This document shows, in pieces, positions 1,746 to 38,500 of a stretch of DNA of 41,795 nucleotides; position 1 is the first letter of the stretch; each line of letters starts with the position of its first letter. Below the pieces are notes generated by a model. The model made no database searches, was not told the DNA's origin, and saw only the letters and a list, made by a program, of their open reading frames with translations. A program made the position numbers and the translations under genes. This stretch comes from an uncultured Mucispirillum sp. (GTDB lineage Bacteria; Chrysiogenota; Deferribacteres; Deferribacterales; Mucispirillaceae): positions 1 through 41,795 of the forward strand of contig CALUZC010000023.1 in assembly GCA_944325215.1 (NCBI GenBank), given 5' to 3'.

Positions 1746-2612
1746 TTATTTACTCATGCAGGTATAATTATCATCATGACCAAACCCAAAGCCTTGTGCT
1801 GTAAAGGTTACTTTTTTTGCACCTTCAAAATAATCAGCTTTTATATCAAGCTTCATTTCAGTTTCACCTTTACAGTCAAACTTACCTATTTTACCTAATA
1901 ACTGCACAAAACCAGTGCATTTCTGATTATTGCTGTGAAAGCATTCATACGAATAATAAAACCCATTAGCTGCCCCATTAGCACTATACCTGTAACCATT
2001 TTTTGCAGGCTTATCAATATCTACTGTAAAATAATATATCTCATTAATATCTTTAAAGTAATGGCTGGTGTCAGATATTTGCATGGTAATATTATCATCT
2101 ACATTTTTTTCACACTGGGCAGCATAATCTGTTGAGTTACCCATTACATTTATAACAGTTGCACCACCATTATCTGCCTGTAATTTAACCCTTGAAAATA
2201 CCTGCCCACTACATGCTGGCTTATATGTAAATGTTGACATGCAGTTATTAGATGGTAAACCAGTATGGCATGATGTTATAACTTCTAAATTATTTGACTG
2301 AGCAGAAACTACTTCAAAAATAGATGCCTGTTTTACAGATACTGGAGATAATGCACCATTTACAAGTGTTGTTGTTTTATTGGAAGTCAATTCCACTGTT
2401 GGAAATGTAGGGTTTGTAATATCATTGCCTGTAACATATATACCTGAGGCAGCCTTTTCCACTATATCACCTACAAGTATTGGTGAATTATAAAGACCAG
2501 AACCGAAATTATTGTTATTGTTATTGTTGCTGCTGTTATCACTGTTATTTGGCATCTCGCCACAGGATACTAAAAACAGCATAACAAAAACCATAAATAT
2601 CTTTTCTTTCAT
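1746..2612 (-). CDS. putative lipoprotein, 288 aa
   Basis: The N-terminus is a clear lipoprotein signal: a positive start, a hydrophobic run, then the lipobox LVSC at residues 14-17, with Cys17 the lipidated residue. Next comes an Asn/Ser-rich linker (about residues 22-37) that probably acts as a flexible tether. The body (40-288) is beta-rich with several cysteines (CHTG, CMST, CSGQ, CEKN, CFHS, CTGF, CKGE, CMSK), which suggests disulfides in the periplasm or at the cell surface. No family is recognised. The ribosome binding site is weak (GAGATG). The gene diverges from the msrAB gene at 2735. Confidence 0.7.
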   Translation of the reverse strand: MKEKIFMVFVMLFLVSCGEMPNNSDNSSNNNNNNNFGSGLYNSPILVGDIVEKAASGIYVTGNDITNPTFPTVELTSNKTTTLVNGALSPVSVKQASIFEVVSAQSNNLEVITSCHTGLPSNNCMSTFTYKPACSGQVFSRVKLQADNGGATVINVMGNSTDYAAQCEKNVDDNITMQISDTSHYFKDINEIYYFTVDIDKPAKNGYRYSANGAANGFYYSYECFHSNNQKCTGFVQLLGKIGKFDCKGETEMKLDIKADYFEGAKKVTFTAQGFGFGHDDNYTCMSK

Positions 2613-2734: not shown

Positions 2735-3883
2735 ATGAAAAAGTTAATAATACTTAGTGCTGCTGTCCTTGTGGTTATTATTGCTGTTTTATTTAGTCAG
2801 AGAGAAACTATGGCAAAGAAAAATGAAATAATAAATACAAATATGCCTTCAAATGTAGCAGAATTACAAGCAAACGCACCTAAAGGATATAGTGAAATTT
2901 ACTTGGCAGGTGGCTGTTTTTGGGGTGTCGAAAAATACTTTTCTTTAATAAATGGTGTTGTTTCTACTGATGTAGGATATGCTAACGGTAATACTCCAAA
3001 CCCTACATATGAAGAAGTAGTGTATAATAATACAAATCATGCAGAAACAGTTCATATTGTTTATGATGAAAATATTGTAAGTCTGCCATTTATTTTAGAC
3101 ATGTATTATAAAATTATCGATCCTACTTCTGTGGATAAACAAGGTAATGACAGAGGCAGGCAGTATAGAACTGGCATATATTATGTAAATGACAGCCAAA
3201 AACAAATTGCTGAAAAATCATTGGCAGAGTTGGCAGCAAAATATAAAGGTGAAAAAATTGCAATAGAGCTTTTACCTATTACAAATTACTATAAGGCAGA
3301 AGAATATCACCAAAAATATCTTGAAAAACAGCCATTTGGTTACTGCCATATAGGACAGGATAAATTTGAAGAAGCCAAAAAAGCAGTTGATAGAGATTTG
3401 CAAAATGCACATATAAATACTAGTGCCAGCAATGAAAAAAAAGAATACAAGCAAATGTCAGATAGTGAATTAAAAGCAACATTAACTGACATGCAGTATA
3501 AAGTTACACAAAAAAATGGGACAGAGCCTCCCTTTAGAAATGAATACTGGGATAATAAAAGAAAAGGCATCTATGTAGATATAACTACTGGAGAACCACT
3601 TTTTTCATCAAAGGATAAATATGATTCTGGCTCTGGCTGGCCAAGCTTTACAAAGCCAATAGATGGCACTGATTTAACAGAAAATACTGATACAAGCCAT
3701 GGCATGATTAGAACAGAAGTAAGAAGTAAAGCTGGTGATGCTCATTTAGGTCATTTATTTAATGATGGTCCAAGAGATAAAGGTGGCATGCGTTACTGTA
3801 TTAACAGTGCATCTCTTAGGTTTATACCAAAAGAAGATATGGTAAAAGAAGGCTACGGCCATTTGATACATTTAGTAGACTAG
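2735..3883 (+). CDS. msrAB: bifunctional peptide-methionine sulfoxide reductase MsrA/MsrB, membrane-anchored
   Basis: It repairs oxidised methionine in proteins; the MsrA domain reduces the S-sulfoxide and the MsrB domain the R-sulfoxide. Residues 4-21 are a hydrophobic N-terminal segment, so the enzyme is exported or anchored facing the periplasm. The MsrA domain (about 54-215) has the catalytic motif GCFWG with Cys61 and a likely resolving Cys204 in GYCHIG. The MsrB domain (about 240-382) has the catalytic Cys355 in [11 protein letters not shown]. The usual MsrB zinc CxxC pairs are absent. The cysteine of the common GCGWPSF motif is Ser here (GSGWPSF, about 299-305), so MsrB recycling must differ from the two-Cys PilB type. 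A near-perfect ribosome binding site (AAGGAGGT) sets the start. It is a single gene with its own terminator. Confidence 0.95.
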
Positions 3884-15837: not shown

Positions 15838-15867
15838 AAAATCAGCAGGGTTTTCCCTGCTGATTTT
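15838..15867 (-). terminator. terminator of the SLAC1/TehA transporter gene
   Basis: A perfect 13-bp stem (15838-15850 with 15855-15867) with a TTTT loop overlaps the stop codon of the transporter gene and is followed on the minus strand by a long T-run. It is a strong intrinsic terminator. Confidence 0.9.
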
Positions 15868-16849
15868 ATTTTTCATCAACACATATTTCTTTTTTAGCTA
15901 TTGCCATTATAGTTCTTATTAATACAAGCAGCACTAAAATAGATGTCATAATTAAAGATATTACAGATAAATATTCATAAAAAGTATAAACAAATCCTGT
16001 TTTTTCATATGCTGTAATTAAAGCCATAGTTAATGCTGCCATTGGAAATGTAAAAGCCCACCATGATATAAAAAATTTAAGCTTATAAAAGTTTTTAATT
16101 AGGGCAAGTAATATAAGCCCAAAAACAATTGCCACATTTAATAAAAGAGATGCAAAAAAGTCATATTCACCTGTCAGCTTAATATAACTTAACATACCCA
16201 CAGATGGTGGTGCTATAAATATAGCTAAAGTTGGTAAAAATTTCTGCACAAGCATACCATGGAAAATTATTCTGTTAAAAAGTATAGCTGTTAAAATTAT
16301 CCAGAAAAATATCCCAAGGGAGAAAAAGAAATTTAAAAGGGCAGCATCTGCAAACCCTTCCCCAGCAATAGGGATAATAATATTACCAACTACAGGTATA
16401 AACCATGCAGGGTTAGAATGTGCCATTTCTATATTTTTATTAAGCCAGTATGTTATTGCATAAAATGTAAAAAATGTCTGCAAACCTGTGCCTGTAAGAA
16501 AAAGCGGATATGCAACATTTTTATACTCATGAAAAACCACAGCTAAAAGCAGCATAGAAATTGATATTGCTGCAAAAAAGTTTACTCTTACAGGGTGAGA
16601 AAGCTCTTTTTTTACTTCATTTATATATGCAATAATTTTAATTAAATAAAAGATACCTATTATTATTGCCAGTGCTGCTGTGATGTATGATAATACTTGG
16701 TAGATAACAGCAGGCAATAAAAGTATTTCATGGGCTTTTTTATAAGCTAGTGTAATACCTGAAAACCCCATTATTACAGCAAACATCATAACAGGGAAAA
16801 ACTTTAATCTTGAAGTTTTTTCATTATTTTGTTGTGATACTTCACTCAT
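15866..16849 (-). CDS. SLAC1/TehA (TDT) family anion channel or dicarboxylate/tellurite transporter
   Basis: An integral membrane protein (327 aa) with about ten hydrophobic segments, the usual size and topology of the TDT family. Family-like features are FFPVMMFAVIMGFSGITLA in the first helix, NPAWFIPVVGNIIIPIAG in the middle, the loop LPTLAIFIAPPSVG, and WWAFTFPMAALTMA near the end. Members act as anion channels or export tellurite, C4-dicarboxylates or sulfite; the substrate here is open. The start has AAGGAAGG upstream. It lies after the uvrB operon with a gap of about 100 bp that holds a TATTAT-like box, so it may have its own promoter. Confidence 0.85.
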   Translation of the reverse strand: MSEVSQQNNEKTSRLKFFPVMMFAVIMGFSGITLAYKKAHEILLLPAVIYQVLSYITAALAIIIGIFYLIKIIAYINEVKKELSHPVRVNFFAAISISMLLLAVVFHEYKNVAYPLFLTGTGLQTFFTFYAITYWLNKNIEMAHSNPAWFIPVVGNIIIPIAGEGFADAALLNFFFSLGIFFWIILTAILFNRIIFHGMLVQKFLPTLAIFIAPPSVGMLSYIKLTGEYDFFASLLLNVAIVFGLILLALIKNFYKLKFFISWWAFTFPMAALTMALITAYEKTGFVYTFYEYLSVISLIMTSILVLLVLIRTIMAIAKKEICVDEK

Positions 16850-16953
16850 AAAATTATCCTTCCTTATATGCCTTAAAAAAGACTTGATTTGTCTGAATAT
16901 AATACTTTTTATTTTTTTTACAAGGGGAAATTTTATAATAGTTGATAAAGTTA

Positions 16954-17388
16954 TTAATTTCTCAGATTAATTTTTATAAACTGCTCATCTTTATCTATAT
17001 TTAATTGAACATTTTTAAATGCAGGTAGTTTACCATATGAGCCAAAAAAATTGTTAGAAAACCCATAATATTCTGTTGGGTGATTTGATGAGTTTTTATC
17101 TATTTTTTTATTATCATTTTCATCATGGTAAAGGTGTATGGCATAAGTGCCTTTTGGTATAATTATTTTTGCTGTTACTTTATCTTTTTTGGCAGGAAAG
17201 AAAAAAGAATACTGGGTTTGTTTTTCACTTAAAAATTCTTCTTCATTTTGGCAAAAATATATTATAATATTTCCATTTGATGACGGAATATTATTCACTT
17301 CCATATTAATAGTAATATTTTCATCTGCAAAAACTGTAGAAGCATATGATAAACATAGTAATATTAATAATACTCTAATATATTTCAT
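16954..17388 (-). CDS. DUF2141 family exported protein, 144 aa
   Basis: A small periplasmic protein. Residues 1-21 are a signal peptide with a likely cut after VFA. The rest matches the DUF2141 pattern: a beta-rich domain with GNIIIYF (39-45), the turn PKGTYAIHLYHDENDNKKID and then PTEYYGFSNNFFG. The function of the family is unknown. The start codon lies one base after the stop of the regulator gene upstream, so it is translationally coupled as the last gene of the uvrB operon. Confidence 0.88.
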   Translation of the reverse strand: MKYIRVLLILLCLSYASTVFADENITINMEVNNIPSSNGNIIIYFCQNEEEFLSEKQTQYSFFFPAKKDKVTAKIIIPKGTYAIHLYHDENDNKKIDKNSSNHPTEYYGFSNNFFGSYGKLPAFKNVQLNIDKDEQFIKINLRN

Positions 17389-17389
17389 A

Positions 17390-18397
17390 TTATTCGTCCA
17401 TATCGTAAAGTTTTAATTTTTTATGAAGTGTATTTCTATTAATTCTAATTAATGCAGCAGCCTGTGACCTGTTATTTTTTGATAAATCAAGAGCTGCTTG
17501 AATAAGTGGTTTTTCCACTGCTTTAATATATTCAAAATATGGGTCAACCTGTTCTGAATGTATGCCACTTTCTAAAAGCCCACGTGCAAATTTATAAAGC
17601 TCATCGGTTACACTTCTATTAGCTTCCATATAACCTTGTTTACGTCGAACTTCTTTTGGAAGTGATGATGGTGTGATTATTCCATTTACTGTATGGTTTA
17701 CTGCATGATGAACTGTGTTTAATAGCTGCCTGACATTACCTGGCCATTCATAACTTAATAAAATTTCTAATGCTTCTTCACTAATTGGCACAGCTCGTTT
17801 TCCAAAATAGCCGATATCACGCATGATTATTCTAATTAAATCTTCAATATCTTCCTTTCTTTCCCGCAAGGGTGGTATATTCATGATAATAGCAAAACTA
17901 TCCTTTAACCTTTGGTTAAACTTATTTTGCATTGAAAGCTCAGTTAAATCCCTGTTAGTAGAAGATATAAGCCTTGGTGCATACATACCAAATTCTTGAA
18001 CTATTTTAATAATGGAATTGAGTAAATATTCCTGCAGTTTTAAATTAGCTGATGATATATCTGTAATATATAATGTGCCACGTTCTGCTTTTTTAAAGTA
18101 TTCAAATACTTTATTAAACCCTAATGAGCCTATAATATCATTAAGCTCAACAGGGTTTATCATTATAAATTTTCCATCTCTTTTACTCTGGTTATGGATA
18201 TATTCTGCTAACCTGTCTTTTCCAACACCATCTTCGCCAGTTATATGGATACTAACATCAATTGGTGCAACAACATCAACTAAATCATATATTTTCTTCA
18301 TTTTAGCAGATTTATTTACAATACTTCTGCTTTTATACTTAGCTATAATATGTGCATCTTCATTAAGTTCTTCTTGTTGGTTAATATTGTTTTCCAT
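17390..18397 (-). CDS. degenerate AAA+ / Fis-type transcriptional regulator, 335 aa
   Basis: It resembles NtrC-family activators: an AAA+ domain (about 22-250) and a C-terminal Fis helix-turn-helix (about 296-331, NNRSQAAALIRINRNTLHKKL). Walker A is GEDGVGKD (54-61), sensor I STNRD (146-150), and WPGNVRQL (218-225) is intact. However, the region that should hold the GAFTGA loop (about 85-105) has no such motif. The Walker B segment reads GTLYITDI instead of GTLFLDEI, and the arginine of the finger segment (LYYRLNV) is replaced (LKDSFAI, 164-170). It therefore probably cannot remodel sigma-54 polymerase and may act as a DNA-binding regulator only. There is no receiver domain. The ATG at 18397 overlaps the PBP1A stop. 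Confidence 0.85.
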   Translation of the reverse strand: MENNINQQEELNEDAHIIAKYKSRSIVNKSAKMKKIYDLVDVVAPIDVSIHITGEDGVGKDRLAEYIHNQSKRDGKFIMINPVELNDIIGSLGFNKVFEYFKKAERGTLYITDISSANLKLQEYLLNSIIKIVQEFGMYAPRLISSTNRDLTELSMQNKFNQRLKDSFAIIMNIPPLRERKEDIEDLIRIIMRDIGYFGKRAVPISEEALEILLSYEWPGNVRQLLNTVHHAVNHTVNGIITPSSLPKEVRRKQGYMEANRSVTDELYKFARGLLESGIHSEQVDPYFEYIKAVEKPLIQAALDLSKNNRSQAAALIRINRNTLHKKLKLYDMDE

Positions 18398-18399
18398 TA

Positions 18400-20946
18400 T
18401 CACTTCTTAAAATCATGTGGTTCAAAATTATTATTTTTATCAACAGGGTATAACGAAAACATTAAATCCCCAGTAATAGCATTTGTCATTTCATTTGTTT
18501 CTTTATTTACTTTAAAATAAGTTGCCCCAACAGGTGTTGGAAATATTGCTAAAGGTAAAATATTATCAATAGCTTTTATGTAATCAATAAATATTAACTG
18601 CGATGTATTTGCACCAACTGCATAGCCACCCATTTTTGTATAATCATCATAACCAACCCATGCGACAGTTACAAGGTTTGGCATAACGCCTGCAAACCAG
18701 CAGTCTTTAGAATCATTTGATGTTCCTGTTTTTCCACCAAATACTCTGTTTATATTAACACGGCTTTTCCATGCACCACCTTTTTCTACTACTTTTACAA
18801 CACTATCTGTAATTAAAGATGCTGATGATGGCTCTAACACTTTCATCATTTCAGGTGGCTGAGCCTCATAGATTGTCTTATTATCAATATCTGCCACACG
18901 TGTTACAAAAAATGGAGTTTTTGAACGCATGCCTTGGTTTGCAAAAGTGCTGTAAGCATAAGCAAGCTCTAAAGGTGATGCCGATAAACTGCCTAAACTC
19001 ACAGATAAATCTTCTGGAATATCACCAGTAAATCCAAATAATCTTGCATATCTAATAATTTTTGCAACACCAATTTTTTGTGCAAGTTTAATGGTTACAG
19101 AGTTATTAGATAACTGTAATGCACGCTCTAAAGTCATCTCTCCTCTAAACTGACCATCAAAGTTTTTTGGTCTCCAGTTTTCATCTGTATTTGAGTTCCC
19201 TTGTATAACTGGTGTATCATGAAATACACTCATAGGGTAATATCCACTTTCATAAGCTGTTGCATAAACAAGTGGTTTAAATGTGCTGCCCACCTGTCTT
19301 CTTGCCTGTACTGCCCTGTTAAAAAATGATTTAAAGTATGACATACCTCCAACCATAGCATATATTTCACCAGTTTGTGGGTTAATAGATACAATGGCAC
19401 CTTCAAGTGGAGGGTTCTGCTCTATTAAATAAACATTATTATTTTTTACTTTCTTTTTGAATGATACATATATCACATCATTTTCTTCAAATATTTTAGT
19501 AAAATTAGTTACCCACTTACCATTATAATTTGATATCCACTCGTTTTCCTTATAGTTAATAATACCTGTGCTGTTATCGTAAAGAAGAATATTTAATTTA
19601 TTTTTTTCCACTTTTGTAATAACTGCTTTTTTATAATTTAATTCTTCCAGATAGCTTGGTATATTATTATCAAGGCGAATTAATTTCGTTCCATTATCCT
19701 GCTGTTCTGCTGCCTCAATAACAGCCATTTCTTCTTCAGACATTTCCACATCTGTATCATTATCTTCTAAAAGCTTGCCTAATGCTCCTTTATAACCTTC
19801 TCTTTTACCTATTGCCATAAGGTTTGTTAAAAGGGCTTTTTCAGCAGCTATTTGATAATCTAAATTTAGTGTTGTAAATACTTTTATACCTTTATTTTGT
19901 GCATCTTCTATTTTTAATTCTTCTTCAATAAACTTATGAACATAGTCCATAAAATAACCAGCATATCTTAACCTTAAAGGAACAGACTCTGCTAATATTA
20001 CCTCTTCATTTAGTGCTTCATTATATTCTTCTTCTGTAATATAGTTCAACTCACGCATACGTTTTAATACGTGGTTTCTTCTGTTTATTGATTTTTTCAT
20101 ATTTAAATGTGGTGCATAAATTGATGGTCCTTTTGGAATACCTGCCACCATAGCAGCTTCTGCAATAGTCATATCTTTTACATTTTTTCCAAAATAATTA
20201 ATTGCTGCTGCCTGAATACCATAAGCACCACGACCAAAGTTTACCTGGTTTAAGTATAATTCTAATATTTTCTCTTTAGAAAGCTCTTTATCAAGCCTGT
20301 ATGCAATAATAGCCTCTTTAATTTTTCTTTTTAATTTTCTTTCAGGTGTTAAATATATTACTTTTACAAGCTGTTGAGTAAGTGTTGAACCACCCTCAAC
20401 CATTCTACCTGCCTTAATGTTTGCAACCATAGCACGTGCAATACCCCATGGGTCAATACCACTATGTTCATAAAACCTTGCATCTTCAACAGCTACCACT
20501 GCTTGATACACATGCTTTGGCATATCTTCAATGGCCACAGGGTATCTTCTTTCTGCACCAAGCTCTGCAATTACAGTGCCTTCTGCATCATAAACTACCA
20601 TTGGCTCATTATATTTGAACTTACTAAACTCATCAGTTGATGGCAGCTCTAAACTAATAATGTATATATAAAGAACTAAACCAAGAAAACCAAGTAAACC
20701 AAGCCCAAACATACCTGCAATACCATATAAGGCAATGCGTAATTTAGTCCATTTCTTTTTAGGTTTATTATTGTTTTCATCGTTATTGTCATTATCATTG
20801 TCATCATCGATTTCATCAGTATCATCATTAGACTTATTATCATTACTACTTATGTTATGTTTACTATCATATTCATGCTCTGCTGCACTTTGCAGCTCTT
20901 CTGATAAATCTTTAATCAGTTTATCATCTTTATTTTCTTCTGACAT
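18400..20946 (-). CDS. mrcA: penicillin-binding protein 1A (bifunctional transglycosylase/transpeptidase)
   Basis: It polymerises and cross-links peptidoglycan in the periplasm. Domains: an Asp/Asn-rich cytosolic tail (1-63), membrane helix (about 70-97), GT51 glycosyltransferase (about 120-300) with catalytic Glu154 in VEDARFYEH and GGSTLTQQLVK (185-195), an inserted OB-like region (about 380-510), and the transpeptidase with SxxK Ser554-Lys557 (STFK), SNN 613-615 and KTGT 738-741. The total of 848 aa is normal for PBP1A. The start ATG at 20946 has GGAG seven bases upstream; a TTG at 20958 would consume that site. It lies 27 bp after uvrB and overlaps the Fis-type regulator gene. The very acidic Asn/Asp tail is unusual. 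Confidence 0.96.
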   Translation of the reverse strand: MSEENKDDKLIKDLSEELQSAAEHEYDSKHNISSNDNKSNDDTDEIDDDNDNDNNDENNNKPKKKWTKLRIALYGIAGMFGLGLLGFLGLVLYIYIISLELPSTDEFSKFKYNEPMVVYDAEGTVIAELGAERRYPVAIEDMPKHVYQAVVAVEDARFYEHSGIDPWGIARAMVANIKAGRMVEGGSTLTQQLVKVIYLTPERKLKRKIKEAIIAYRLDKELSKEKILELYLNQVNFGRGAYGIQAAAINYFGKNVKDMTIAEAAMVAGIPKGPSIYAPHLNMKKSINRRNHVLKRMRELNYITEEEYNEALNEEVILAESVPLRLRYAGYFMDYVHKFIEEELKIEDAQNKGIKVFTTLNLDYQIAAEKALLTNLMAIGKREGYKGALGKLLEDNDTDVEMSEEEMAVIEAAEQQDNGTKLIRLDNNIPSYLEELNYKKAVITKVEKNKLNILLYDNSTGIINYKENEWISNYNGKWVTNFTKIFEENDVIYVSFKKKVKNNNVYLIEQNPPLEGAIVSINPQTGEIYAMVGGMSYFKSFFNRAVQARRQVGSTFKPLVYATAYESGYYPMSVFHDTPVIQGNSNTDENWRPKNFDGQFRGEMTLERALQLSNNSVTIKLAQKIGVAKIIRYARLFGFTGDIPEDLSVSLGSLSASPLELAYAYSTFANQGMRSKTPFFVTRVADIDNKTIYEAQPPEMMKVLEPSSASLITDSVVKVVEKGGAWKSRVNINRVFGGKTGTSNDSKDCWFAGVMPNLVTVAWVGYDDYTKMGGYAVGANTSQLIFIDYIKAIDNILPLAIFPTPVGATYFKVNKETNEMTNAITGDLMFSLYPVDKNNNFEPHDFKK

Positions 20947-20973
20947 TTCTCTCTCCAATATATCTATATTTTT

Positions 20974-22950
20974 CTATTTCTTTTTAGCTTTTAATTCAAA
21001 AATAATATCTCTTAATTTTGCAGCCTTTTCAAAATCAAGCTCTTCAGAAGCTTTATACATTTGTGCTTCCAATTTTTCAATATCTTTTTCACTATTACCT
21101 GATAATTTTACATCAAAATCGTCATTAACTTCAACAGTAAAATAATCTTTTTCATAAATTGATGCTAAAATATCACTTATAGCACTTTTTACAGTTTCTG
21201 GTGTAATGCCATTTGCTTCGTTATATGCTTTTTGTTTTGCCCTTCTTCTTGCTGTTTCATCAATTGTCTGCTGCATTGCACCACTTACTTTATCACCGTA
21301 AAATATGGCTCTGCCTTCTGCGTTTCTTGCAGCCCTGCCTATTGTTTGGATTAAAGATTTTGTGGAACGTAAAAACCCTTCCTTATCAGCATCTAGTATG
21401 GCTACAAGCTTTACTTCAGGAATATCAAGCCCTTCTCTTAAAAGGTTTATGCCCACAAGCACATCAAATTCACCAAGACGAAGTGATTTTATTATTTTAA
21501 TACGCTCTATTGTATCTATTTCAGAGTGTAAATATTCCACCCTTATGCCCATATCTTTATAATATCTTGTAAGTTCTTCTGCCATACGTTTAGTTAGTGT
21601 GGTAACTAAAACTCTGCCACCCTCTTTTGTTACTTTTAATATTTCATTATATAAATCATCTACTTGAGTTCTTGCAGGGCGCACTTCAATTTCTGGATCC
21701 ATTAGTCCTGTTGGGCGTATAATCTGCTCTGCAATTACCCCTTTTGCTTCATCTATTTCATATTTATCTGGTGTGGCACTTACATACAGCACCTTATTTA
21801 TTCTGCTGTCAAACTCATCAAATTTTAAAGGTCTGTTATCTAGTGCTACAGGCAGACGAAAACCAAAATCAACCAGTGTTGTTTTTCTAGACCTGTCCCC
21901 ATTATACATGCCTCTAATCTGCGGTATTGTTATGTGGCTTTCATCAATTATAACTAACGCATCTTTTGGAAGATAGCTTATTAGTGTATAAGGTGTTGAG
22001 CCGGGAAGCCTTCCGTCAAAATATCTTGAATAGTTTTCAATGCCTGTGCAGTAGCCTGTTTCTTTCAACATTTCTATATCAAACATTGTTCTTTGAGTTA
22101 ATCTTTGTTCTTCTAAAAGTTTATTTTGACTTACAAATTCACCACATCTTTCTATTAAATCTTTTTTCATCTGCTCTATTACGCTGTCCATTGTAATGGC
22201 ACTTGTTACATAATGAGTATTAGGATAAATGGATAACTCTTTTAAATCTTTTGTGGTTTTTCCTGTTAGTGCATGAAATTCACTAATTCTATCAAGGCTG
22301 TCCCCAAAAAATTCTAACCTGTATGCTGTTTCATCTTCATGGCTTGGGAAAATCTCAATAGTATCGCCTTTTACTCTAAAAACTCCCCTGTGGAAATCCA
22401 CATCGTTTCGTTCATAACGCACTTGGATTAATTTCATTAAAACATCATCAAAATTATATTCTTCCCCCAGTTCAAAGTGCTGTATCATGGTAGCATATGT
22501 TTCTGGAGAGCCAAGACCATATATACATGAAACAGAAGCAACTATTATTACATCCCGCCTTTCAATTAATGAGCGTGTTGCTCTATTTCTTAATTTTTCT
22601 ATTTCTTCATTAATGGCAGAATCTTTTTCAATATATGTATCACTTGATGGAATATATGCTTCTGGCTGATAATAATCATAATAACTTACAAAATATTCTA
22701 CAGCATTATCTGGAAAGAATTTTAAAAACTCACCATAAAGTTGAGCAGCAAGTGTTTTGTTGTGTGCTATAATAAGTGTAGGCACCTGTAGTCGTTCAAT
22801 TACATTTGCCATGGTAAAAGTTTTACCAGAGCCTGTAACACCAAGTAAAACTTGACGCATAGCACCATTATTATATGATGATACAATTTCTTCAATTGCT
22901 TCTACTTGGTCACCTGCTGGTTTATAATCTGATGATATTTTAAATTCCAA
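20974..22950 (-). CDS. uvrB: excinuclease ABC subunit B
   Basis: The central nucleotide-excision-repair protein, which verifies damage handed over by UvrA and loads UvrC. Visible are Walker A GVTGSGKT (37-44), the DNA-clamping hairpin region [19 protein letters not shown] (about 90-110), the DESH motif in VIIDESHIT, helicase motifs V and VI ([20 protein letters not shown]), and the C-terminal UVR motif for UvrC contact (about 625-656). Length (658 aa) is normal. The start is TTG at 22950, with GGAG seven bases upstream; there is no nearer ATG in frame. It is the first gene of the operon uvrB - PBP1A - regulator - DUF2141. Confidence 0.97.
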
Positions 22951-23077: not shown

Positions 23078-23587
23078 CTAGCCAACTACTTCTGATGTCA
23101 CTGCTTCTATTAAACCATCACTTCTTTTACGAAGTATTATTGTATTTGCAGAATCTACTTCCCCATCTATAATATAACTTATTACAAGCATATTATCTTT
23201 ATACAGATACAATACAGTCATACTATTTATATTCTTTGATGTAGTTATTTCAGGCAGTTTCCCTATATTTTCTCCCTCATAAATTTTACCTATTTCTGCA
23301 TATACTTCTTGAAATGTTTTAGAATTATAGACATATTTTGAGTAGTATACTGTGCCACCAGCATCTGAGCAGTAATAACATTCTTTAAATCGAGTAGAAT
23401 CGCAATCTGAATTAGGTTCAAATTTATTATCAATACTTAAATATTCATCTATTACCTTTGTTGTTTCTGATATTAGGTAAGCTTCTGAATTTTTAGAAGG
23501 TTTTTTATCTTTTGAATAATATCCTTGTGCATACAGATAATTCACTGACAGCATTAAAATAAAAAATACATAAATTAATTTTTTCAT
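23078..23587 (-). CDS. hypothetical secreted protein, 169 aa (paralogue A)
   Basis: Residues 1-20 are a signal peptide (MKKLIYVFFILMLSVNYLYA). The mature part has four cysteines clustered at about 62-73 (CDSTRFKECYYC), likely forming disulfides. The second half resembles the neighbouring protein at 23695: KTFQEVY with KSFDEVY, MTVLYLYKDNMLVIS with MIVYYYQDMLAIK, and GLIEAV with GFIESI near the end. GAGGAT precedes the ATG. The pair are therefore paralogues of an unrecognised periplasmic family. No function can be assigned. Confidence 0.7.
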   Translation of the reverse strand: MKKLIYVFFILMLSVNYLYAQGYYSKDKKPSKNSEAYLISETTKVIDEYLSIDNKFEPNSDCDSTRFKECYYCSDAGGTVYYSKYVYNSKTFQEVYAEIGKIYEGENIGKLPEITTSKNINSMTVLYLYKDNMLVISYIIDGEVDSANTIILRKRSDGLIEAVTSEVVG

Positions 23588-23694: not shown

Positions 23695-24147
23695 TTATAT
23701 TAAATAGGAAATAATACTCTCTATAAAACCATTTTTTGTCTTTTTAAATAAATAGTACACATCACATACTTTAATTGCCAACATATCCTGGTAATAATAA
23801 ACTATCATTTGTTCTTCAAATGTATTTTTTTTAGGTAAGCTTTCAGGTAAACCTGATGAAAAACCCTCACAAAAATAATACTGTCGCTCTTGTTTATAAA
23901 CTTCATCAAAAGATTTTACTTTATATAATCTTTTAGCATAACGATTATCTTCTATTCGTAAACGCCACTCTTTTTCAACAAATGGAGGCATATACTCAGG
24001 ATTTTCATTAAGTTCAAAATTTTGATTTTTTTCAATAGTTAATGCATCTTTAATAAAATACTTTACCCACTTAATATCTTCTTCCGTATTAGCATACCCT
24101 AACGAAGAAAAAAGGACTAGAAATAATAAAACAAATATTTTTTTCAT
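23695..24147 (-). CDS. hypothetical secreted protein, 150 aa (paralogue B)
   Basis: Residues 1-19 are a signal peptide ending in GYA. The mature protein is charged and aromatic, with only two cysteines (CEGF and KVCDVYY). It shares spaced motifs with the downstream neighbour at 23078 (see KSFDEVY, MIVYYYQDMLAIK, GFIESI). GGGAGA precedes the ATG. It is separated from rpoC by the rpoC terminator, so the two paralogues form their own small unit between the RNA polymerase operon and the uvrB operon. Confidence 0.7.
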   Translation of the reverse strand: MKKIFVLLFLVLFSSLGYANTEEDIKWVKYFIKDALTIEKNQNFELNENPEYMPPFVEKEWRLRIEDNRYAKRLYKVKSFDEVYKQERQYYFCEGFSSGLPESLPKKNTFEEQMIVYYYQDMLAIKVCDVYYLFKKTKNGFIESIISYLI

Positions 24148-37046: not shown

Positions 37047-37171
37047 TTATCTACACTTTTTTATTACATTTATTATCCTTTTTTTATTAATTTTTACAAT
37101 TTTGTAAAACTATTTTCTTTTTTATTTTTAATTTTTCCTTTGTTATCAATTAATTATATCTTTTAATGTTT

Positions 37172-37187
37172 TGGCATACTATTTGAC
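37172..37187 (+). promoter_or_regulatory. sigma-54-like promoter of amt
   Basis: TGGCAT, five bases, then TTGAC matches the -24/-12 sigma-54 layout (TGGCAC-N5-TTGC) except for T for C at the end of the -24 box and GA for GC at -12. The expected start point near 37198 leaves a short leader with GGAGG before the amt ATG. Nitrogen-controlled ammonium transporters are often sigma-54 dependent, which fits the position. Confidence 0.5.
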
Positions 37188-37213: not shown

Positions 37214-38500
37214 ATGAAAATAAGATGGTTAATAATTTTCTTTTTTATGGCTTTAGTTTCTATTGCTGGTTTATTTATTCCTGAAAGCAGCTCACTTTAT
37301 AATGTTGTTGATGAAAACATTAATTATGCTGATACTGCATGGATGATTACAGCTACCGTATTAGTTCTTTTAATGACACCGGGTGTTTCATTTTTCTATG
37401 GTGGAATGGTTAGAGCAAAAAATATTATATCTACTATGCTTCAAAGTTTTATAGCTATGGGTATAATAAGTGTTATATGGGTTATTTTTGGTTTCAGCCT
37501 TGCTTTTGGTGATGATATTGCAGGTATTATTGGCAATCCTTTAACATTTTTTATGTTTGATGGTGTAGGCTATAATACCCATGAACTTTTATCACCTACT
37601 ATTCCACTTGTTGTATTTGCTCTTTTTCAAATGAAATTTGCAATTTTAACACCTGCATTAATTACAGGCTCATTTGCTGAAAGAGTGCATTTTTCTGCTT
37701 ATATTTACTTTATTATTCTTTTTTCCATATTTGTATATTCCCCTATTGCCCATATGCTTTGGCATCCTGAAGGCTTATTTAAACAATGGGGTGTTACTGA
37801 TTTTGCTGGTGGTTTAGTTGTCCATACTACTTCCGGTATTGCTGCTCTTACTGGTGCTATCTTTCTTGGAAAACGTAAAAATACTTCATCAGTCCCAGTA
37901 AATATTCCATTTGTATTACTTGGTGTTGCATTTTTATGGATAGGCTGGTTTGGGTTTAATGCAGGTTCTGCCTTAGCTGTAAACTCTGTTGCTGTTAAAG
38001 CACTTGTTAATACAAACACGGCTGCAGCTACTGCTATGCTTACATGGATTGCATATGATTACCTTCGCGGTAGAAAACCCGGTGCAGTATCAGCTTCAGT
38101 TGGTGCTGTTGCAGGACTTGTTGGTATTACACCTATGGCAGGTATGGTTTCTGTTGGAGTAAGTTTCTTTATAGGGTTTATAACTGCACTTATTTGTAAC
38201 ATTGCTATACACTATTTTTCTAAATCAGTTGATGATGCTTTAGATGTTTTTCCAACCCATGGCATTGGTGGAATTGCAGGAAGCCTTTTAACAGGCGTAT
38301 TTTACAATGGTCTGCTTGCTGGAAATACTCATGAATTTTTTATGCATATTGCTGCTCTTGTTATTACTGTTGCATATAGTTTTATTGTTAGTTTTCTGCT
38401 CTATTATATAATCAATAAATTTATACCATTTAGAGTTTCTGATGTTAATGAAGAAATTGGGCTTGATGTAAGCCAGCACAATGAAAGCTATAAAAATTAA
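37214..38500 (+). CDS. amt: ammonium transporter (Amt family)
   Basis: A trimeric inner-membrane channel that takes up ammonium. 428 aa. An N-terminal hydrophobic segment (5-22) looks like a signal peptide, then comes the standard core of eleven helices. Landmarks are AWMITATVLVLLMTPGVSFF with YGGMVRAKN (about 42-70), the outer Phe gate in FALFQMKFA, the pore histidines in VVHTTSGIAALTGA and DVFPTHGIGGIAGS, and WFGFNAGSA. The ribosome binding site GGAGG is strong. No glnB/glnK gene follows, unlike the common glnK-amtB pair. A sigma-54-like promoter precedes it. Confidence 0.97.
   Translation: MKIRWLIIFFFMALVSIAGLFIPESSSLYNVVDENINYADTAWMITATVLVLLMTPGVSFFYGGMVRAKNIISTMLQSFIAMGIISVIWVIFGFSLAFGDDIAGIIGNPLTFFMFDGVGYNTHELLSPTIPLVVFALFQMKFAILTPALITGSFAERVHFSAYIYFIILFSIFVYSPIAHMLWHPEGLFKQWGVTDFAGGLVVHTTSGIAALTGAIFLGKRKNTSSVPVNIPFVLLGVAFLWIGWFGFNAGSALAVNSVAVKALVNTNTAAATAMLTWIAYDYLRGRKPGAVSASVGAVAGLVGITPMAGMVSVGVSFFIGFITALICNIAIHYFSKSVDDALDVFPTHGIGGIAGSLLTGVFYNGLLAGNTHEFFMHIAALVITVAYSFIVSFLLYYIINKFIPFRVSDVNEEIGLDVSQHNESYKN

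Follow-up and report, generated by a model that had tools for sequence, protein, structure and literature searches.

An NtrC-type regulator stripped of its sigma-54 activation parts and retained under selection in Mucispirillum and related gut bacteria

What is left for an NtrC-type regulator to do once the parts that couple it to sigma-54 polymerase have disappeared? The question is raised by a gene of an uncultured Mucispirillum sp., carried on a 41,795-nucleotide stretch of DNA (contig CALUZC010000023.1), hereafter the window. An initial annotation, made from the letters of the window without database searches, had suggested that the product may be an enhancer-binding protein (bEBP) turned repressor or architectural DNA-binding protein and had hinted at control of envelope genes. 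Here, the gene is set against its orthologues in the same bacterial order, against the nitrogen genes of the same genomes and against the GAFTGA-defective regulators already known.

The gene lies on the minus strand, a point on which the initial annotation was silent, and the plus strand across the same interval is full of stops (Table 1). An in-frame GTG at 18403, two codons upstream of the ATG, offers an alternative start that overlaps the stop codon of the PBP1A gene and is seen again in several relatives. The description of the gene as locked in place by overlaps stands only in part: it abuts both neighbours (+2 nt to PBP1A from the ATG, +1 nt to the DUF2141 gene), but a true overlap, of -4 nt with PBP1A, arises solely with the GTG start. 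Pfam recognizes Sigma54_activat (in two pieces), Sigma54_activ_2, AAA_lid_14 and HTH_8, all above cut-off (PF00158 scores 62.8 bits against a cut-off of 20.2; PF14532 and AAA_lid_14 are also over theirs), and finds no receiver, sensory or other N-terminal domain, as had been proposed.

Table 1. Positions, strands and basis of the features of the window discussed in the text
Feature	Position	Strand	Basis
SLAC1/TehA-type transporter gene, following DUF2141	15866..16849	-	Pfam/profile
DUF2141 gene; in the genus alone it, not rnr, follows the regulator	16954..17388	-	Pfam and synteny
Stripped NtrC-type regulator (AAA+ remnant plus Fis-type HTH), 335 aa; ATG at 18397, last stop base at 17390	17390..18397	-	Pfam; orthologues in 10/10 genus genomes
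Fis-type HTH, residues 292-334, recognition helix INRNTLHKK	17396..17524	-	Pfam and alignment
Degenerate Walker B, T-D in GTLYITDI, residues 112-113 (canonical D-E)	18059..18064	-	Alignment
Walker A GEDGVGK, residues 54-60	18218..18238	-	GxxGxGK in 19/19 stripped orthologues
PBP1A gene, immediately upstream of the regulator	18400..20958	-	Next to the regulator in both stripped families, as far as contigs reach
Presumed uvrB, first gene of the ancestral uvrB-PBP1A-(kinase)-regulator-rnr order	20974..22950	-	Sequence and synteny
Palindrome TTTTACAATTTTGTAAAA before amtB; core as at genus glnN	37092-37109	+	Motif search
Sigma-54-like element TGGCATACTATTTGAC before amtB	37172-37187	+	Motif search
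Ammonium transporter gene amtB (PF00909), no PII partner	37214-38500	+	Pfam

The surroundings of the gene hold two further items. Between rpoC and the gene that we take, from its sequence, to be uvrB lie two minus-strand ORFs without a Pfam match (23078-23587 and 23695-24147); of the compared neighbourhoods, only that of G001 contains a match to the first. On the other side, the region before the SLAC1 gene carries a TATATT box and, just past it, an inverted repeat, AGAC-N7-GTCT (16880-16894, minus strand); the stretch holding the repeat is well conserved across eight aligned genus genomes, and the repeat looks like a putative operator.

Motifs were compared in an alignment of 35 sequences. 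These comprise all 19 stripped orthologues, of which 15 belong to the Mucispirillaceae (ten from the genus and five from the groups g2 and g3) and four to a sister family, f4, together with 16 orthologues from the 26 genomes of other families of the order, here called canonical, the other ten being left unaligned. The losses noticed in the window recur in all ten genus members and, with variations, in the five other family members and the four f4 genomes. Both motifs said to survive do so throughout, Walker A as GxxGxGK in 19/19 stripped proteins and the RNTL of the HTH without exception in the same 19. GAFTGA is missing from every stripped protein and present, as G[AS][FY]TG[AS], in all 16 canonical ones; in the ten genus members it is deleted, and Walker A and Walker B lie 58 residues apart in the genus, 60 in g2 and g3 and 48-53 in f4, versus 71 in 16/16 canonical proteins. 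Upstream, 31-60 residues precede Walker A in the stripped set versus 161-172 in the canonical set. The Walker B motif of the window does read LYITDI, with TD for canonical DE: its Asp is replaced in 10/10 genus members (Thr in four, Ser in five, Ala in one), the next position staying acidic (D or E), and by Asn in three of the four g2 proteins, while G010, G011 and G031 keep it; the Glu position holds D or E in 17 of the 19. Where a single arginine finger had been thought replaced, both are, the positions of PspF R162 and R168 (numbered after the relevant passages of PMC7175178 and PMC4132715) being Asn and Ser in all ten genus members. Across the stripped set the first finger is lost in 18/19, surviving only in G011 (g3), and the second in 19/19. 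Unremarked until now, the window's regulator keeps the switch Asn, the sensor I Asn and the sensor II Arg; the last is retained in 15/15 Mucispirillaceae and the switch Asn in 14/15, including the genus, and both are lost in 4/4 f4 proteins. The residue after RNTL is Arg in 16/16 canonical proteins, His in the genus, Ala in g2 and Ser in g3.

The predicted structure agrees with the profile matches. In an AlphaFold2 model built on the 35 aligned sequences (mean pLDDT 84, pTM 0.65), residues 22-254 match the AAA+ domains of bEBPs, with FleQ (6jdi) at Z 24.7 (rmsd 2.4, 227 residues aligned) and NtrX, FlrC, LuxO, PspF and VpsR as other close folds. As a prediction, the model supports a bEBP AAA+ fold and says nothing on function. 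The AAA+ remnant spans about 230 residues, so the regulator is no free-standing HTH protein.

The origin of the protein can be read from its locus. The order uvrB-PBP1A-kinase-regulator-rnr is found in families f2, f3, f5, f7 and f8, and the Mucispirillaceae and f4 share it minus the kinase, the regulator following PBP1A directly wherever the contig allows. PBP1A, kinase and regulator are consecutive in nine of the 16 canonical loci; in six loci, from family f6, the kinase lies elsewhere, and one contig ends too early for gene order. Where contigs allow, rnr is still downstream of the regulator in g2, g3 and f4, and DUF2141 has that position in the genus. The canonical orthologue is a REC-AAA+-Fis protein (domains from one genome; lengths and motifs from 16). 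A full-length match to the cognate kinase (E < 1e-47) occurs in 25 of the 26 canonical genomes, the exception (G034) being 73% complete, and in none of the 19 stripped genomes, the best values in 15/15 Mucispirillaceae being only 1e-11 to 1e-19. Synteny, tree and shared C-terminal region together show that the regulator is orthologous to a REC-AAA+-Fis response regulator, and the proposed descent from an enhancer-binding protein is upheld, with the sigma-54 activation parts lost and the DNA-binding part and P-loop kept under selection. The ntrC model of NCBIfam (TIGR01818) is the best match of three canonical orthologues, at 421-450 bits, below its cut-off of 558.6, and gives the window's regulator 135.5 bits, likewise below cut-off; that even the canonical proteins score beneath it (450 versus 558.6 bits) counts against the NtrC assignment.

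The losses are old. Orthologues occur in all nine other genus genomes (75-95% identity), in 5/5 other family members (37-42%) and in the four f4 genomes. In a tree of RpoB plus RpoC, with three of the four f4 genomes represented by partial sequences, Mucispirillaceae and f4 form one clade (97/99), and because of this clade the losses are shown to trace to one ancestor in the gut lineage, which on this reconstruction shed kinase, receiver domain and GAFTGA loop. With RpoB alone the best tree does not unite the two families (AU p 0.491). In the regulator tree they come together at 79/94, and the protein stands apart from the three other bEBPs of its own genome at 100/99. In G045 and G046, 1.3-Mb genomes of family f9 in the same class, the best matches of the regulator are 500-aa bEBPs (E 9e-26).

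Long stems lead to the stripped lineages (0.6-0.98), reflecting rapid change at first and constraint that later resumed. Estimates of dN/dS follow the Nei-Gojobori method, and several of the pairs are close to dS saturation. Across nine genus pairs the whole gene gives 0.031-0.131, its AAA part 0.013-0.111 and its HTH 0.028-0.119. Neighbouring genes in genus pairs give 0.079-0.233 (PBP1A), 0.022-0.081 (UvrB, eight pairs) and 0.104-0.371 (DUF2141); the AAA part gives 0.06-0.09 in g2 and 0.017-0.053 in canonical proteins (five pairs with finite values). The reading frame is open in all 19 stripped genomes, and strong purifying selection has acted on the regulator since the stripping. Orthologues with intact GAFTGA and Walker B, which the initial annotation would have taken as the mark of a recent mutant, do exist, in 16/16 cases from other families; this copy is no such mutant, because the losses are ancient and fixed in 19/19 genomes of two families. 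Together with conservation in 10/10 genus members, the low dN/dS (0.03-0.13) rules out chance, a recent mutant and a pseudogene alike.

What the ancestor controlled is suggested by a recurrent box. In four of six f6 loci, alignment of the upstream regions reveals a 17-bp palindrome, TGATTA-N5-TAATCA, lying 33-34 bp ahead of the regulator; two of the four copies are exact. Genome-wide, TGATTA-N5-T[AC]ATCA has 97 strand matches in the 26 canonical genomes versus 10 for the reversed pattern, a control that preserves base make-up and not dinucleotides; the figures are 43 versus 34 in the 15 AT-rich Mucispirillaceae genomes, hardly an enrichment, and 2 versus 0 in the four f4 genomes. Several of the sites are some 100 bp upstream of a PII gene. 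The box, at 11/12 positions or better, falls within 250 bp upstream of 17 of the 27 canonical PII genes (shuffles gave a mean of 0.095 and at most 1), and a sigma-54 promoter match of at least 10/11 lies upstream of 14, eight of which carry the box too. We infer that the canonical regulator binds TGATTA-N5-TAATCA. Because this box and sigma-54 promoters precede PII genes, the ancestor was very probably an NtrC working from enhancers, as part of an NtrBC system. The hint of envelope control, drawn from the neighbouring genes alone, finds no support: the PBP1A neighbourhood predates the stripping, since the regulator sat between PBP1A (and the kinase) and rnr while its probable box lay at PII genes, and DUF2141 adjoins it only inside the genus.

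Searching the Mucispirillaceae genomes with the ancestral box identified no binding site for the stripped protein. As a shared Mucispirillum regulon the box was rejected, its positions disagreeing between species: exact palindromes lie upstream of a DUF302 gene in G000 and G007 and elsewhere in G004, G005 and G008, one of them inside a coding sequence. The DUF302 palindrome is no footprint, since the entire upstream stretch is similar in G000 and G007. An attempt to footprint the region before uvrB in the genus, where the upstream genes vary between species, gave no clear shared site. The E. coli-type NtrC box, TGCAC-N7-GTGCA, was discarded as well, with 0-2 sites per genome in 20 genomes, about as many as its reversed control; its sole match in the window (1903-1919) is within an ORF.

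The stripping was accompanied by the dismantling of a nitrogen circuit. PII is found in none of 15 Mucispirillaceae, in 25 of 26 canonical genomes (the one without is 64% complete) and in 4/4 f4 genomes, once weakly. Full-length glutamine synthetase I (GSI) is present in 15/15 canonical genomes tested and in G031, and in none of the nine Mucispirillaceae tested; in the Mucispirillaceae, G017 and G024 the search for it returns only a protein of about 700-745 aa, identified by Pfam in G000 as glutamine synthetase III. The Mucispirillaceae thus lost kinase, PII and GSI alongside the stripping. One f4 genome, G031, combines a stripped regulator that has Walker B DE intact with PII and GSI, and its regulator is an apparent intermediate; neither the ancestral box nor a sigma-54 promoter stands upstream of its PII gene.

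Other components are still in place. Sigma-54 is encoded in G000 (PF04552, E 2.0e-58), and three intact bEBPs are present besides the regulator, two of them response regulators and one of GAF type. In 6/6 genus genomes tested, glnN, the gene for glutamine synthetase III, has a perfect sigma-54 promoter upstream, preceded at about 102-105 bp by the palindrome TTACA-N4-TGTAA. Among five other stripped genomes only G024 has this box at glnN; g2 and g3 are without it. The same palindrome and a sigma-54-like element also precede all three amtB genes found, those of the window, G001 and G007 (the window and two of the five other stretches searched). In 149,800 background bases of genus sequence TTACA-N4-TGTAA occurs once, at amtB. 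It recurs 43 bp before the gene of the intact GAF-type bEBP (L002), near gltD, gltB and glnN; on the stretch G000:C5:57000-72000 (L301) its two copies, at 3473 and 10875, lie before that bEBP's own gene and between gltB and glnN. The genes called gltB, gltD and aminotransferase here are presumed to be such from their sequences. This distribution suggests that nitrogen control has moved to the GAF-type bEBP, the centre of a candidate replacement circuit.

We therefore hold, with moderate confidence, that the protein is an NtrC relic, uncoupled from sigma-54 and probably unable to hydrolyse ATP, that serves as a DNA-binding repressor or architectural protein. The constraint on the HTH suggests that it would still bind DNA through this domain. 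With GAFTGA gone, it should no longer recruit or remodel sigma-54 polymerase; with the Walker B Asp and the arginine fingers gone, it should hydrolyse little or no ATP. Because the P-loop is the sole catalytic motif kept in 19/19, the protein likely still binds nucleotide, in aid of folding or assembly, and gating is possible; bound nucleotide may still shape folding or oligomer state. At a small and altered set of sites it would most likely act as an architectural protein or a repressor of the sigma-70 type. Such a function is plausible for a DNA binder that has no activating surface, and Caulobacter NtrC, which also lacks GAFTGA, represses sigma-70 promoters (PMC10274813). Against this reading counts the recognition helix, in which one residue has changed (from Arg to His in the genus). 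Operon linkage to PBP1A may partly explain why the gene persists. More tentatively, and short of calling it probable, we propose the full history. A master nitrogen activator would have been replaced, and its old gene, severed from kinase, receiver, sigma-54, PII and the ancestral boxes, would have lasted as long as the two gut families themselves. Its product would be a DNA binder of new specificity that bears a P-loop and is hydrolysis-dead, a living intermediate between NtrC and a Fis-like protein of repressor or architectural type, and nitrogen control would now belong to a GAF-type activator and a new box.

The strongest alternative, unlikely in our estimation, is a sigma-70 regulator, activation included, whose DNA binding is switched by ATP/ADP or c-di-GMP bound without hydrolysis. 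The P-loop is invariant in 19/19, the genus retains the switch Asn and sensor II Arg, the AAA part is as constrained as the HTH, FleQ and VpsR are among the closest folds and GAFTGA-less R. capsulatus NtrC, in the part of PMC10274813 concerned with it, offers a precedent. Set against these points are the missing Walker B Asp and arginine fingers and the case of f4, which keeps the P-loop after losing the switch Asn and sensor II Arg, so that the P-loop may serve folding only. It is improbable that the protein is instead a trans-acting inhibitor, a defective AAA+ subunit that joins the cell's intact bEBPs and poisons their rings: three such bEBPs and sigma-54 are available, and the missing parts are exactly those that make a subunit active, but a pure inhibitor would not need an HTH as constrained as the AAA part, the residues of the arginine-finger interface are gone and the paralogues are distant in the regulator tree. 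More doubtful again is a protein that still senses the nitrogen state, by some other route, and acts at sigma-54 or sigma-70 promoters to repress or fine-tune nitrogen genes; although it descends from a PII-linked regulator and the genus nitrogen genes retain sigma-54 promoters, the TTACA-N4-TGTAA box before the GAF-type bEBP gene, glnN and amtB points to the GAF-type protein, and g2 and g3 possess the stripped regulator yet lack that box at glnN. A decaying pseudogene or functionless passenger of the PBP1A operon would account for the long stems and is very improbable given the open frames and the low dN/dS, in the AAA part of g2 as elsewhere.

Our search, which left subscription journals mostly out of scope, found no literature on this gene or on sigma-54 or NtrC in Mucispirillum, and the available portion of the main text of the Mucispirillum genome paper (PMC5285517) contains neither 'two-component' nor 'histidine kinase'. 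The nearest precedents to the relic that we favour are the NtrC proteins of R. capsulatus and Caulobacter, whose L1/GAFTGA loop is deleted and which, in the relevant passages of PMC10274813 and PMC12421884, are reported to act at sigma-70 promoters, the Caulobacter protein as both activator and repressor. By the former account R. capsulatus NtrC requires ATP binding, and residues of both Walker A and Walker B are needed by Caulobacter NtrC. An increase in sigma-54 transcripts is described for some mutants of Caulobacter NtrC that have no GAFTGA (PMC12421884, in part), so loop loss leaves some sigma-54 effects possible. Like these two proteins, the regulator appears to be an NtrC descendant that lost GAFTGA and kept its HTH; unlike them, with their phosphorylatable receiver and NtrB, it has no receiver, kinase, Walker B Asp or arginine fingers. 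TyrR, DhaR, HupR, VpsR and YplP mostly keep sensory or receiver N-terminal parts, whereas the regulator is a bare AAA+ domain plus HTH. All five appear as GAFTGA-defective bEBP homologues, with TyrR, DhaR and HupR sigma-70 dependent, in the pertinent part of PMC3162934. Against the TyrR model the regulator scores a weak 77.8 bits, versus the 135.5 bits for ntrC.

PspF shares the receiver-less AAA+ plus HTH layout and the AAA+ fold; unlike the regulator it has GAFTGA, Walker B and arginine fingers intact and is an active sigma-54 activator, as the corresponding sections of PMC7175178 and PMC4132715 state. Fis has a related HTH (E 7.5e-6 to 1ety; 5.8e-10 for PRK00430) and, unlike the regulator, is a protein of 98 aa with no AAA+ domain. 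It is thought to have derived from the DNA-binding domain of NtrC. The regulator would thus be more stripped than the named GAFTGA-defective bEBPs, as these are described in the portions of the papers cited, with its ancestor and intermediates visible. GAFTGA-less activators have been known singly, mostly with receiver and ATPase intact; here, a single order with conserved gene order holds the ancestor together with two families of stripped proteins and intermediates of graded loss (Walker B intact in one f4 protein, one arginine finger kept in g3), and the sequence of losses therefore becomes readable and testable. The loss is, moreover, tied both to a dismantled nitrogen circuit (kinase, PII and GSI) and to the candidate circuit that would have replaced it in the same genus. 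The swapping-out of a master regulator, and the role of its remains, are thereby opened to experiment.
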